This document shows, piece by piece, positions 1 to 4,730 of a DNA stretch of 53,823 nucleotides. The position numbers and the translations under genes are program-made. This DNA is from Symbiobacterium sp. (lineage in GTDB: Bacteria > Bacillota > Sulfobacillia > UBA995 > UBA9673): contig DYFB01000082.1 in assembly GCA_020725405.1 (NCBI GenBank), positions 1 through 53,823 on the forward strand, written 5' to 3'. The notes beneath the pieces were generated by a model that saw only the letters and a program-made list of their open reading frames with translations, was not told the DNA's origin and ran no database searches. Position 1 is the first letter of the stretch, and each line of letters begins with the position of its first letter.

Positions 1-140
1 ACGAGGTCCGGGTGACGGTCATCGCCACGGCCTTCGAGGACCGGCCCAAGAAGAAGAAGCGCGACCAGGCCGAGCTGGAGATAAGGCCCCTGTCCGCCGA
101 CGACCTCGAGGTTCCCACTTTCCTGCGAAAGCGCGACTGA
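1..140 (+). CDS. ftsZ: FtsZ cell-division GTPase, C-terminal tail (5' end cut by window)
   Basis: This gene is missing from the ORF track because its start lies outside the window. Reading from base 3, the frame gives about 45 residues. It begins with the last beta strand of the FtsZ C-terminal domain (EVRVTVIATAFE), passes through a short charged linker (KKKKRDQAE) and ends with the conserved C-terminal peptide DDLEVPTFLRKRD before TGA. That peptide is the docking site for FtsA, SepF and other partners in known FtsZ proteins. FtsZ polymerises into the Z ring at mid-cell and at the asymmetric sporulation septum. Its position just upstream of spoIIGA matches the Bacillota order. The linker is unusually short. 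Confidence 0.9.
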   Translation, partial: EVRVTVIATAFEDRPKKKKRDQAELEIRPLSADDLEVPTFLRKRD

Positions 141-181
141 CCGTCATCGTCTGCCCCAGGCTGCCGAAGCTTCTCTCTCTC

Positions 182-248
182 TGACGATTCCGGGCCTATG
201 GCCCCCTCCCGGGTTTGACACGGTCCCCCCGACGGTGCCGGTTATAAT
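182..248 (+). promoter_or_regulatory. spoIIG-type promoter with 22-bp spacer and Spo0A-box-like sites
   Basis: A perfect -35 hexamer TTGACA (215-220) and a perfect -10 hexamer TATAAT (243-248) are separated by 22 bp instead of the usual 17. The B. subtilis spoIIG promoter is known for this long spacing and depends on Spo0A bound next to the -35 element. The complement of TTTGACA (214-220) is TGTCAAA, one base from the 0A box TGTCGAA, and TGACGAT at 182-188 is a second near match. The site lies 54 bp upstream of the spoIIGA start. Spo0A control is inferred. Confidence 0.65.
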
Positions 249-301
249 GGCCCAGCGTCCCCAATAAGGTATATGTCAGGAGCCTGTCGGGGGGCCAAGC
301 C

Positions 302-1216
302 TTGCCGTACGTCTACGCCGACATACTCTTCCTGGTCAACTTCTGCTTCAACTTCTCCTTGCTCTACCTTGCCGGTCGGCTGTCGAGGTCGCCGGTGGTC
401 GGCCGTCGCCTGGTCCTGGCGGCGGCCCTGGGAGCGGCCTACGGCCTGGCCTCGGTCTTCCCCGAGGCCGGGTTCCTCATGAGCCTACCGGCGAAGCTCC
501 TCGTCTCCGGGGTGATGGTGGCCGTAGCCTATCCGACCCCCCGGCTGGCGTCCTTCGGGGCCGTCCTCGGCCTCTTCTATCTCGGCGCCTTCGTCGTCGG
601 CGGAGCCGCGATGGCCTGGACCTACCTCACCTCGGACACCCCGGGCTTCCCCGGGGGCGTCGCCGGCGGGCTCGGCCTGGGGGTCGTCCTCCCGTCGGCC
701 ATGCTCGCGGCGGCCCTTCTCCACTGGGCCGTCGTCGCCGGACGGGAGAGGGCCCGCGTCCTTGCCTACTGCGTTCCGTGCCGGGTGGTCATCGGCGGCC
801 AGGAAGCCGAGTTCCCCGCCCTCATCGACACGGGCAACCGCCTCCGCGACCCCATATCCGACGCCCTCGTCGTCATCGTCGAGTACCCGGCCATAGACCG
901 CCTGCTCCCTCCGGAGATCGCTCCCGTCTGGCAGACGGCCGAGCCCGACCACCCCGACCTCGGGTCCATCGCCGGGGCCCTGGGTCCGTGGTCGTCCAGG
1001 CTGAGGCTCATACCCTTCTCATCCATCGGAAGGGCGAGCGGTCTTCTCGTCGGGTTCAAGCCCGACGCCGTGATCGTCGGCGGCCGGGGGCGGACGGTCC
1101 GGAGGACCGACGTCATCGTCTGCGTCTCGCCGCGGCCCCTGTCGGCCGGGGGCGGCTACCGCGCTCTCCTGCCGCCCGAGGCCCTGGAGGCCGACGCCGC
1201 TGCCCGGGCCAGCTGA
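302..1216 (+). CDS. spoIIGA: SpoIIGA, pro-sigma-E processing aspartic protease
   Basis: A 304-residue membrane protein. The N-terminal half is a set of about five hydrophobic segments (residues 5-25, 38-55, 60-78, 83-105, 122-146). The C-terminal half is a soluble protease domain with the active-site motif ALIDTGN (Asp176) and the conserved stretch [10 protein letters not shown] followed by GFKPD. Two SpoIIGA subunits form a pepsin-like aspartic protease that removes the pro-sequence of sigma E in the mother cell once SpoIIR signals from the forespore. The chosen start is TTG at 302, giving [14 protein letters not shown], which matches the family N-terminus. The only Shine-Dalgarno candidate is a weak G-run at 289-294. 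The gene lies just upstream of its substrate gene sigE, as in other Bacillota. Confidence 0.95.
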
Positions 1217-1274
1217 GGTGCCCGGGCCGGCGGAACTGCCCGGGCCGGCGGAACTGCCCGGGCCAGGAATCCTG
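1203..1274 (+). repeat. 18-bp GC-rich tandem repeat at the spoIIGA/sigE junction
   Basis: The unit cccgggccggcggaactg is perfect at 1221-1238 and 1239-1256. Degenerate copies flank it at 1203-1220, overlapping the spoIIGA stop codon, and at 1257-1274. The ORF track reads it as a false N-terminal extension of sigma E ([12 protein letters not shown]). Confidence 0.8.
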
Positions 1275-1295
1275 CGAGGGAGAGGAAGAGCGAAA

Positions 1296-2054
1296 ATGGA
1301 CGGTGGACCTGTGACCGTGTCCCGCCCGACCCTGTGGACGAGACTCCGCTGGTCTCTCGTCCTCACCATCCAGCGTTGGTGCCGGATGCTCGGCCTGGCC
1401 GCAGGCCGGCCCGATCACTACGTGGGGACGAGCGAGGCCCTGCCCCCGCCCCTGTCCCCCGACGAGGAGGCCTACCTCCTTGAGCGCCTGCAGGCGGGGG
1501 ACCGGAGCGTCTGCGGGGCGCTCATCGAGCGCAACCTGAGGCTGGTCGTCTACATCGCGAAGAAGTTCGACAACACCCGGGTGGGGATAGAGGACCTCGT
1601 CTCGATCGGGACCATCGGACTCATCAAGGCCGTCAACACCTTCGATCCCGGCCGCCGCATCAAGCTCGCCACGTACGCGTCCAAGTGCATCGAAAACGAG
1701 ATTCTCATGTTCCTGCGCCGCAACCCGCCCAGGGCGGAGGTGTCCTTCGACGAGCCCCTGAACGTGGACTGGGATGGAAACGAGCTCCTACTCTCGGATG
1801 TCCTGGGGACGGACGCCAACGTCACCTACCGGGAGCTCGAGGAGGAGGTCGACCGGGTTCTCCTCCGGAAGGCGATGACCAAGCTCACCGAGAGGGAGCA
1901 GAAGATAATGCAGCTCCGCTTCGGCCTGGGCGATGGACAGGAGCGGACCCAGAAGGAGGTGGCCGACCGCCTCGGTATCTCCCAGTCCTACATCTCGCGG
2001 CTTGAAAAACGAATCATAAAGCGACTTCGACAGGAAATGGCGGCCATGATGTGA
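1296..2054 (+). CDS. sigE: RNA polymerase sporulation sigma factor E (pro-sigma-E)
   Basis: A 252-residue sigma-70 family factor that runs early mother-cell transcription. The amphipathic pro-region (about residues 1-42) ends in [13 protein letters not shown], aligning with the B. subtilis cleavage region [13 protein letters not shown], so processing by the adjacent SpoIIGA is expected near Tyr42. Region 2 is clear ([45 protein letters not shown]), as is region 4 with its helix-turn-helix ([22 protein letters not shown]). ATG 1296 was chosen because GAGGAAG lies 7 nt upstream and the family pro-region length fits. The track start at 1218 only adds tandem-repeat sequence. GTG 1311 is an alternative start. 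Confidence 0.96.
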
Positions 2055-2133
2055 CGTGCGACGCACCCCTGTGCGGCAGCGGCTGGTCGCCGTCCAGTGC
2101 GCGGTGCTGGGGCCGGGCGCCGCGAACCAACCT

Positions 2134-2242
2134 AAGAGAAGTGAAGGCAGGGAAGGGGAGCGAGAGAAGGGGAGTGAGAGAAGGGGAGCGAGAGAAGGGG
2201 AGGCAAAGAAGGGCAGGGGAGAAGGGAAGGGAGAGAAGAGGA
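2134..2242 (+). repeat. Purine-only tract with 14-bp repeats between sigE and sigG
   Basis: About 109 bases that are almost entirely G and A on the plus strand, lying in the 484-bp sigE-sigG spacer, which has no gene. A 14-bp unit cgagagaaggggag repeats three times in tandem (2161-2202, one substitution), followed by degenerate units. Tracts of this kind can adopt triplex or G-quadruplex structures, but a regulatory role is inference only. Confidence 0.75.
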
Positions 2243-2256
2243 TATCCCCTTCGTCA

Positions 2257-2285
2257 AAACATACTTACTGATGGGAAGTATGTTT
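2257..2285 (+). promoter_or_regulatory. AT-rich inverted repeat upstream of sigG (operator or hairpin)
   Basis: AAACATACTT (2257-2266) and AAGTATGTTT (2276-2285) form a perfect 10-bp inverted repeat around a 9-nt loop. It is an AT-rich island in a 70% GC region. CATACTT resembles the -10 box of sigma E/F/G-type sporulation promoters (CATA...), but no convincing -35 was found. It may be a repressor site, part of the forespore promoter of sigG, or a transcript hairpin. Confidence 0.45.
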
Positions 2286-2375
2286 CCGGAAGATGAACCA
2301 TCCCTAACCGGCATACCCCCCGGCCTTCTGCGAACCGAGGCCTGCAAACCTTGACCGGCCGCCGCCGGCCCCGGC

Positions 2376-2428
2376 GGACCAGCCCCGGCTGATCGGCCCC
2401 GCCGGACCAGCCCCGGCTGATCGGCCCC
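2376..2428 (+). repeat. 28-bp-period direct repeat upstream of sigG
   Basis: A 25-bp sequence beginning ggaccagccccggctgatcg occurs at 2376-2400 and again, without mismatch, at 2404-2428. It lies in the non-coding sigE-sigG spacer. Confidence 0.75.
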
Positions 2429-2538
2429 GGCGAGCCCGCCCCCGACGGAGCTCCGGCGGAATAGAGGTCCCGCCCGGCGGGCATACTCACCCCTAGTCCA
2501 CATCCTAAGAATTACCAGTGGGCAGGGGGAACTGGCTC

Positions 2539-3312
2539 GTGCTTGTCAACAAGGTCGAGATCTGCGGCGTTAACACGTCCAAGCTCCCAGTCCTCACGGC
2601 CGCCAAGATGCGCGAGCTCTTCCTGCGCATGAAAGGCGGCGACCGGACAGCCCGCGAACAGCTCATCCACGGTAACCTCCGGCTCGTTCTGAGCGTCATC
2701 CAACGCTTCAACAACCGCGGCGAGTACGTCGACGACCTCTTCCAGGTCGGCTGCATCGGACTCATCAAGGCCATCGACAACTTCGACCTCGGGCAGAACG
2801 TCAAGTTCTCCACTTACGCCGTGCCGATGATCATCGGCGAGATTCGTCGCTATCTCCGGGACAACAACCCCATCCGGGTCAGCCGGTCCCTCCGCGACGT
2901 GGCCTACAAGGCCCTCCAGGTCCGTGACGGCCTTGTCAACAAGTATTCCCGCGAACCCACGATCACCGAGATATCCCGGGAGCTGAAGATGCCCCGCGAG
3001 GAGGTCGTCTTCGCCCTCGACGCCATCCAGGAACCCATCTCCCTCTTCGACCCGGTCTACCACGACGGCGGGGACCCGATCTACGTGATGGACCAGATAG
3101 GGGACGAGAAGAATCAGGACTCCAACTGGCTCGAGGGCATCTCCATCCGGGAGGCCATGGAGAAGCTGACCGAGCGGGAGAAGCTCATCCTCTCGCTGAG
3201 GTTCTACGAGGGCAAGACCCAGATGGAAGTAGCCGACGAGATAGGTATCTCGCAAGCCCAGGTCTCGCGCCTGGAAAAGGCCGCGCTGGGGCACATGCGC
3301 AAGCTCATGTAA
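2539..3312 (+). CDS. sigG: RNA polymerase sporulation sigma factor G
   Basis: A 257-residue sigma factor for late forespore transcription. The N-terminus NKVEICGVNTSKLPVL is a signature of sigma G and is the segment contacted by anti-sigma factors in the family. Core signatures are RFNNRGEYVDDLFQVGCIGL in region 2, RDNNPIRVSRSLRDVAYKAL in region 3 and TQMEVADEIGISQAQVSRLE in region 4. GTG 2539 was chosen because it gives MLVNKVEICG, matching family length, with AGGGGG about 9 nt upstream. The track start (2518) adds seven unlikely residues. Unlike B. subtilis, a long repeat-rich spacer separates it from sigE. Confidence 0.96.
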   Translation: MLVNKVEICGVNTSKLPVLTAAKMRELFLRMKGGDRTAREQLIHGNLRLVLSVIQRFNNRGEYVDDLFQVGCIGLIKAIDNFDLGQNVKFSTYAVPMIIGEIRRYLRDNNPIRVSRSLRDVAYKALQVRDGLVNKYSREPTITEISRELKMPREEVVFALDAIQEPISLFDPVYHDGGDPIYVMDQIGDEKNQDSNWLEGISIREAMEKLTEREKLILSLRFYEGKTQMEVADEIGISQAQVSRLEKAALGHMRKLM

Positions 3313-3462
3313 GCTCCCGGACCCGGGGCCGGCGGCCGACCGCAGCCCGGCGGCGGCCGGCGGAGGTGCGACTTGCCTGGACCTGCCTGGCCTTCCCGAC
3401 GCTCCCGCGGATTACCCCTCCTTGCCCGGAGAAGACTAGCTAGACGGCGGCCCGGGGCGGAG

Positions 3463-3564
3463 AGCCGCCCGCGGCTCGGCCTCGGCCGGGGGAGCGAGCC
3501 GCCCGCGGCTCGGCCTCGGCCGGGGGAGCGAGCCGTCCGCGGCCCGGCCTCGGCCGGGGAAGCG
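3463..3564 (+). repeat. 34-bp tandem repeat, three copies, upstream of spoIIR
   Basis: The unit starts agccgcccgcggctcggcct and repeats at 3463-3496, 3497-3530 and 3531-3564. The first two copies are identical and the third is slightly diverged. It fills much of the 302-bp sigG-spoIIR spacer, where no gene is visible. Confidence 0.85.
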
Positions 3565-3614
3565 AGCCGGACCGGGGAAGCGAAGAGAACCGGGCCTGTT
3601 TGGAGGAAGTCACC

Positions 3615-4730
3615 GTGAAGCCAGACTTCAGAGCCGGCGCCGTCAGAACGAGCGCCGTCGACACGGGGAGGCCTGTCGCTCCCGCGAGAGCGGGCCGCGG
3701 CCGGGAGGTTGTCGGCCGGGTCCTTCTCGCGGGTCTCATCCTCTTCATCACCGCCGTGGTTCACGCCGGGTGGGAGCTCCGGGCCGAGAAGGCCTACAAC
3801 ATGCACAATCTCGTGCGCCTGCACGTCGTCGCCAACAGCGACGGACCGGCGGACCAGGCTCTCAAGCTGGAGGTCAGGGACGCCATCCTCCGGGTCTCGG
3901 GCGACCTGTTTACCGCCCGGGCTCCCGAGGACGCCACCTCCATCATCAGGGCCAATCTGGCGACCTTCGAGGAGGCGGCCAGGGACGTCGTCCGCGAAGC
4001 GGGCTCCGACTATCCGGTGAGGGCCGAGTTCGGGGTCTTCGCCTTTCCGGAGCGGACGTACGGGCCCCTCGTTCTGCGAGCCGGGGACTACCCGGCCCTC
4101 CGTGTCGTTCTCGGCGACGGACAGGGGACCAACTGGTGGTGCATTCTCTTTCCGCCCCTGTGCTTTCTCGATGTCGTGGGGGGTGGTCCGGACGCGGCCC
4201 GGAAGGTCGCCGCCGGGGATGGCTCGAGCGGAGCGGCCCGGGTAGTCTCCCTCCGTTCCCTATCTCCCGAGGAGAGGCGGGACCTCGAAAGGGTTCTCGA
4301 GCGCGTCCTGGAGAGAACCCGGGCCGGAGGGGCGCAGCCGGGGGGCGCACCGACCCACGCCGCCGGCGGAGCCGGAGGGGTCGGGCTCCTGGTCGCCGTC
4401 TCGACCGGCTCCGGCGCCCTGGTCGACCTTGGCTTCGGTGACCTTGGCTCCGGCAATCCCGGCTCCGGTGATGTCAGCATCGGCGCTCTCGGTTTCGAGG
4501 ACGCCGACCTCGACGACCTCGCCAGCGTCACCGCCGCGGGCCGCGACCCCGCCCCGGATTCGGGATACCTCGTTCTCGTGGCCGACACGGGAAACCATGG
4601 TCTCGAAGTGCGCCTATTCGTCGTTGAGCGGTTCAGGGAGCTCATGAGGGCCCTCGCCCGGGCTTTCCCGTGGCTCTTCCGGGAGGAAGGGTCGGCGGTC
4701 GGCCTCGGCGGTGCGAATCCCGACCGCTGA
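3615..4730 (+). CDS. spoIIR: SpoIIR, forespore signal protein that activates SpoIIGA
   Basis: A 371-residue secreted sporulation protein. After an Arg-rich N-terminus comes one hydrophobic segment (about residues 33-53), then the conserved core: VRLHVVANSDGPADQALKLEVRDA near residues 68-91 and YPALRVVLGDGQGTNWWCIL followed by FPPLCFLD. In known sporulators SpoIIR is made in the forespore under sigma F, is exported, and triggers SpoIIGA cleavage of pro-sigma E across the septum. It is longer than usual (B. subtilis about 224 aa) because of a Gly/Ser/Asp-rich insert (DLGSGNPGSGDV) before the conserved C-terminal helix EVRLFVVERF. GTG 3615 has GGAGGAAG 5 nt upstream; the track start at 3600 would use the Shine-Dalgarno itself as coding sequence. 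Confidence 0.93.
   Translation: MKPDFRAGAVRTSAVDTGRPVAPARAGRGREVVGRVLLAGLILFITAVVHAGWELRAEKAYNMHNLVRLHVVANSDGPADQALKLEVRDAILRVSGDLFTARAPEDATSIIRANLATFEEAARDVVREAGSDYPVRAEFGVFAFPERTYGPLVLRAGDYPALRVVLGDGQGTNWWCILFPPLCFLDVVGGGPDAARKVAAGDGSSGAARVVSLRSLSPEERRDLERVLERVLERTRAGGAQPGGAPTHAAGGAGGVGLLVAVSTGSGALVDLGFGDLGSGNPGSGDVSIGALGFEDADLDDLASVTAAGRDPAPDSGYLVLVADTGNHGLEVRLFVVERFRELMRALARAFPWLFREEGSAVGLGGANPDR

Follow-up and report, generated by a model that had tools for sequence, protein, structure and literature searches.

The spoIIG promoter keeps a single geometry across the phylum, in which a GACA tetranucleotide lies 21 or 22 bp, mostly 21 bp, upstream of a TATAAT −10 element in front of spoIIGA. 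In Symbiobacterium sp., where these four bases end a perfect TTGACA hexamer, sequence comparison indicates that the element is very probably a Spo0A-activated, sigma-A-dependent spoIIG promoter. TTGACA would then be a Spo0A box, and the 21 to 22 bp would be the distance between the activator's box and the −10 element.

Organization of the spoIIG promoter region

The window, by which we mean the whole stretch of 53,823 bp analyzed here, corresponds to positions 1 to 53,823 (+ strand) of contig DYFB01000082.1 of Symbiobacterium sp., whose genome amounts to 2.23 Mb. The promoter element lies directly 5′ of spoIIGA, in the gene order spoIIGA-sigE-sigG-spoIIR (Table 1), SpoIIR being encoded 3′ of sigG (PF09551). 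SpoIIGA scores 200.5 bits against TIGR02854, slightly below the cut-off of 209.55. The final residues (DLEVPTFLRKRD) of the open reading frame preceding the promoter appear to resemble the C-terminal tail of FtsZ; this fragment has no Pfam match, and FtsZ is found among solved structures only as a sub-threshold match (4m8i, E 0.18).

Table 1. Features of the spoIIG promoter region and operon, in window coordinates.
Feature	Position	Strand	Evidence
3′ end of upstream ORF	3..140	+	Sequence; the contig starts here
Second Spo0A half-site position (predicted), CC here	209..210	-	Logo C 0.77 at −8, A 0.56 at −7; window sequence
Main Spo0A box (predicted), TTTGACA	214..220	-	GACA near-invariant 21/22 bp from −10 in 155/226 regions; preceding TT unconserved
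Position of TTY tract, TCC here	224..226	.	Logo +7 to +9 (7-9 bases past the G of GACA): T 0.86 / T 0.75 / Y 0.92
−10 element TATAAT of sigma-A promoter	243..248	+	Shared by the four genera in the window's family and kept phylum-wide
spoIIGA leader	249..301	+	Family alignment, fold, sigma-E model
spoIIGA, pro-sigma-E processing protease, TTG start	302..1216	+	PF03419 E 1.9e-70; TIGR02854 E 3.5e-59
sigE, sporulation sigma factor	1296..2054	+	TIGR02835 381.3 bits, above cut-off 348.6
sigG, sporulation sigma factor	2518..3312	+	TIGR02850 502.3 bits, above cut-off 457

As the initial annotation had reported, TTGACA (215-220) and TATAAT (243-248) are both present as perfect hexamers and the spacer between them (221-242) measures 22 bp. 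The sequences found 16, 17 and 18 bp from this −10 element, CGGTCC, ACGGTC and CACGGT, do not resemble TTGACA, and no canonical sigma-70 site was found in positions 1-4000 of the window. Searching the whole genome for TTGACA-N15..24-TATAAT returned 8 perfect pairs, versus 0 for a reversed-pattern control; seven of them are spaced by 17 or 18 bp and only that of the window by 22. Since spacing is ordinary in the other sigma-A promoters of this lineage, the promoter of the window is a real exception. A model of the phylum-wide element scores 22.4 at this site and 12.4 at the next best site on both strands of the 53.8-kb window. The local copy is slightly degenerate, with TCC for the TTY tract described below and, at the second half-site, CC where most relatives have a CA located 10 bp 5′ of that in the main box; this half-site is therefore degenerate in the window.

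The looser pattern NGACA-N21/22-TATAAT occurs at two further sites of the genome (reversed control, 1). No spore gene was recognized near either of them, and both are probably chance occurrences. One, a GACA-N22-TATAAT that may be fortuitous, is located shortly 5′ of a DNA polymerase I-like ORF (L050, G000:C80:7476-7507, − strand), and the other lies near a nucleotidyltransferase-like ORF.

Conservation of the promoter spacing across the phylum

From the phylum, including the class of the window, we collected the DNA 5′ of spoIIGA in 226 cases, representing 157 families, with family and phylum labels as assigned by the search tool; one of these regions, from Alkaliphilus serpentinus, was the single relative recovered by a contig search with the SpoIIGA of the window. 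When GACA-N(k)-TATAAT, one −10 mismatch being tolerated, was counted for k from 10 to 30, k = 21 was found in 120 regions and k = 22 in 37, every other value being found in 0 to 7. A strict motif, GACA-N21/22-TATAAT under the same tolerance, was present in 155 of the 226 regions and 101 families, compared to a mean of 2.6 and a maximum of 6 in local shuffles. These counts give each sequence equal weight, and counts per family agree with them. An unbiased count of every 4-mer at every distance from candidate −10 elements also placed GACA at 21 bp on top (119 genomes), followed by the overlapping TGAC at 22. Spacer identity among relatives is only 0.26 and the surrounding DNA is unalignable.

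The initial annotation had proposed that a spoIIG-type geometry linked to Spo0A, with its 22-bp spacing, is kept in this high-GC lineage. The geometry is indeed kept, and phylum-wide; the exact value of 22 bp is not what is conserved, as 21 bp is commoner (119 versus 36 of the 155 motif regions) and is the spacing of all three family relatives of the window.

Among the 71 regions lacking the strict motif, 21 score at least 12 with a model derived from the hits, 17 of these having a distance of 21 bp and 2 a distance of 22 bp; many of these variants carry TACA where GACA would be expected, and others a weak −10 element. The remaining ones have no recognizable copy within the stretch taken, which may reflect a gene start or promoter located elsewhere, or a diverged promoter. 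In several families the vicinity of the gene seems devoid of any copy, and spoIIG may be rewired there.

Conservation of individual bases

The logo of the motif regions reads C(−8) A(−7) ... Y(−1) G A C A NNN T T Y ... TATAAT. Information at position −2, where TTGACA has its first T, amounts to 0.02 bit, making this base random; at position −1, that of the second T, T has a frequency of 0.68 and C of 0.26. This logo is partly conditioned on the selection for GACA, a bias for which the unbiased 4-mer count and a leave-one-out analysis control. With each position freed in turn at 21 or 22 bp, G was kept in 157 of 178 cases, A in 157 of 161, C in 157 of 168 and the last A in 157 of 163 (88-98%). 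The first T, on the contrary, was found in 47 of 157 and the second in 106 of 157, with C in 40, mostly in high-GC genomes. Complete TTGACA hexamers occur in only 34 of the 155 motif regions. The same variation exists within the family of the window, whose four genera carry TTGACA-N22 (the window), CTGACA-N21, CCGACA-N21 and GCGACA-N21, all with TATAAT.

In sigma-A −35 elements, conservation is highest at TTG. The pattern observed here, in which GACA is near-invariant and TT is free to vary, argues against the initial view of TTGACA as a conserved −35 element. It also gives a split answer to the question, raised with that view, of whether the two hexamers drift independently among relatives: TATAAT and GACA stay, whereas the −35-like TT drifts. 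In the Spo0A box (TGTCRAA; TGTCGAA reads TTCGACA in reverse), either T or C is accepted at position −1 and the GACA bases are needed, and contacts with this box have been described at G2, C4 and G5, within the GACA bases (PMC3485338). TTGACA is thus best read as a putative Spo0A box that resembles a −35 element by accident, the TT/CT/CC/GC variation within the family implying that its perfect appearance in the window is a coincidence of drift.

Two Spo0A boxes had been proposed upstream of spoIIGA, and both sequences, TTTGACA (214-220) and TGACGAT (182-188), are present; only the former is conserved. Read in reverse, it is TGTCAAA, a 6/7 match to TGTCGAA, and its position is kept phylum-wide. 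TGACGAT was rejected as a Spo0A box, as no column beyond −9 is conserved (maximum 0.21 bit) and the sequence is lost in the family alignment. Further words resembling a Spo0A box occur upstream with moderate enrichment (63 versus 27 genomes) and have no fixed place. The CA of the upstream half-site, 10 bp away, fits a second tandem Spo0A box. The TTY tract is found 7-9 bases past the G of GACA in N21 and N22 promoters alike and, because it keeps this distance in both spacing classes, belongs with the activator side; it would fit the GAA end of a candidate third box 10 bp further on. We discarded the tract as a displaced −35 element, since the spacer would be 12 bp and its distance is fixed to GACA, not to the −10 element.

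spoIIE promoters and Spo0A

A similar layout was observed upstream of spoIIE in the same class (L239-L266), where exact GACA-to-−10 distances are 21 bp in 13 cases, 22 bp in 5 and 25 bp in 1; the spoIIE gene of the window's own genome (L240) is preceded by TGTGACA-N21-TAGAAT. Like those of spoIIG, these promoters have YGACA at 21-22 bp from the −10 element, often with CA 10 bp upstream. They differ in that a TTY tract is not evident and the −10 element is weaker, often TAGAAT, TAAAAT or TACAAT. Sharing of this layout by spoIIE indicates that the geometry is a property of the class of Spo0A-activated sigma-A promoters, not of spoIIG alone. The genome encodes one Spo0A (TIGR02875, 386.6 bits, cut-off 200), with an almost unchanged recognition helix; in its DNA-binding domain, SRVERAIRHAIEVAW is identical to the solved Bacillus domains 1lq1 and 1fc3. 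The rpoD match in this genome is cut by a contig end.

Sigma-E-type promoters in spoIIGA leaders

The leader of the window is almost invariant in the four family genera (GGCC...GTCCCCAATA...GTCAGGA...CGGGGGGCCAAGC), unlike the DNA upstream of the promoter. It contains a Shine-Dalgarno-like GGGGGG, and CCCC at 259-262 can pair with the Shine-Dalgarno-like GGGG in a predicted hairpin that shows no covariation; a search for an RNA element in this leader gave no Rfam match.

Across the collection, CATA-N3-ATG and GGCATA are over-represented in the leaders that separate the −10 element from spoIIGA. ATA-N16-CATA, in which GNYATA forms the −35 element, occurs there 32 times versus 0.7 in shuffles. 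In B. subtilis, spoIVA is sigma-E-dependent. A sigma-E model was built only from the spoIVA upstream regions of the class, its threshold being set at the 99% level of shuffled leaders. With this model, 59 of 155 spoIIG leaders score (34 families); none of 155 stretches of equal length taken 5′ of the Spo0A box does, nor any of 23 spoIIE leaders. In these relatives (e.g. L109, L111, L120, L098, L100, L150), the sigma-E-type promoter (GNYATA-N16-CATAnnnAT) is located 3′ of the Spo0A promoter and 5′ of spoIIGA, and in several leaders its ATA is the very one inside the sigma-A TATAAT. These promoters suggest a positive autoregulation of sigma-E.

In the leader of the window, a promoter of this type is at best weak and may be absent: the model scores no site, there is no ATA-N15..17-CATA, and AATA is found instead. 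This AATA, at 263, stands exactly 16 bp past the ATA of the −10 element in all four family genera, and the model gives 8.4 and 5.6 in two sister genera. It is possible that AATA represents a decayed sigma-E −10 element.

Discussion

Our analysis points to a promoter at which phosphorylated Spo0A would bind two bottom-strand sites head-to-tail, the box at 214-220 and, 10 bp farther upstream, a weaker half-site. The bound activator would occupy the upstream margin of the −35 region, at about −38 to −34, and the sigma-A holoenzyme would engage the consensus −10 element. As no usable −35 element exists at the normal 17 bp, region 4 of sigma-A would have to be held through contact with Spo0A. A fixed distance from activator to −10 element, as opposed to a stretched −35/−10 spacer, would explain the conserved 21-22 bp. 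Spo0A reportedly contacts sigma-A at spoIIG in B. subtilis, as the title of Schyns et al. 1997 has it (cited in PMC12090719). Conservation, spacing and the presence of spo0A are observed, and from them we infer binding, activation and the transcription start in this organism. Sigma-A could still touch TTGACA before activation, a contact of the kind proposed for B. subtilis.

By ordinary sigma-A criteria the promoter of the window is atypical, with a spacing of 22 instead of 16-18 bp and a TTG that is not conserved among orthologues. It could nevertheless be a true, stretched sigma-A promoter at which region 4 initially binds TTGACA as a −35 element before Spo0A shifts the polymerase downstream, a repositioning reportedly proposed for B. 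subtilis spoIIG. We find this unlikely. Its appeal lies in the perfect TTGACA of the window and in the excess of T over expectation at the second position; it is difficult to see how an initial −35 contact could be required when the first T is random, when one promoter in four has C instead of the second T, especially where GC content is high, and when sister genera carry CTGACA, CCGACA and GCGACA.

Even less probable is that the operon is expressed mainly from another promoter, such as a sigma-E-type promoter in the leader using TATAAT as −35 and the AATA at 263 as −10 element. The leader promoters of 59 of 155 relatives and the retention of AATA at exactly 16 bp in four genera speak for it, against which stand the absence of any site scored by the sigma-E model in the window and the inability of sigma-E to make its own first transcript, for which the Spo0A promoter would remain necessary. 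That the two hexamers met by chance in GC-rich DNA, in favor of which stand the two other places fitting the looser pattern, we give practically no credit: position, orientation and spacing recur 5′ of spoIIGA in 101 families, against 2.6 of 226 in shuffles, and this conservation across families refutes it.

The Spo0A-activated promoter that we favor is consistent with the spoIIG promoter of B. subtilis, which is controlled by Spo0A~P and sigma-A, with a Spo0A box in the −35 region located 22 bp from the −10 element. The two promoters share the gene, the box in the −35 region and the 22-bp distance; the window differs by its high-GC lineage, by a degenerate upstream half-site and by the lack of a demonstrable second upstream Spo0A site. 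In Clostridioides difficile, RNA-seq mapped the spoIIGA start to a sigma-A promoter with boxes GTGACA and TATAAT (PMC3789822), and Spo0A binds the spoIIGA upstream region in vitro, weakly (PMC3485338). That promoter is the same element as in the window, in a low-GC organism and with a box starting with GT instead of TT. By analogy, the mapping and binding would provide independent experimental support for a Spo0A/sigma-A promoter in the window.

The leader promoters make us lean slightly toward a phylum-wide relay, in which the Spo0A/sigma-A promoter, with its fixed 21-22 bp geometry, would start sigma-E synthesis and a sigma-E promoter in the leader would then take over, in some families by reusing the ATA of TATAAT as its −35 element. 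The literature searched on C. difficile spoIIGA describes only the sigma-A promoter; subscription literature lay outside this search, so the novelty of the relay is uncertain. The leader finding makes sigma-E autoregulation testable. More generally, one activator-promoter geometry is held within one bp before the same operon across a phylum, and the pattern of substitutions tells the bases that Spo0A would read from those that sigma-A would not, which provides a direct evolutionary argument on how Spo0A activates spoIIG.
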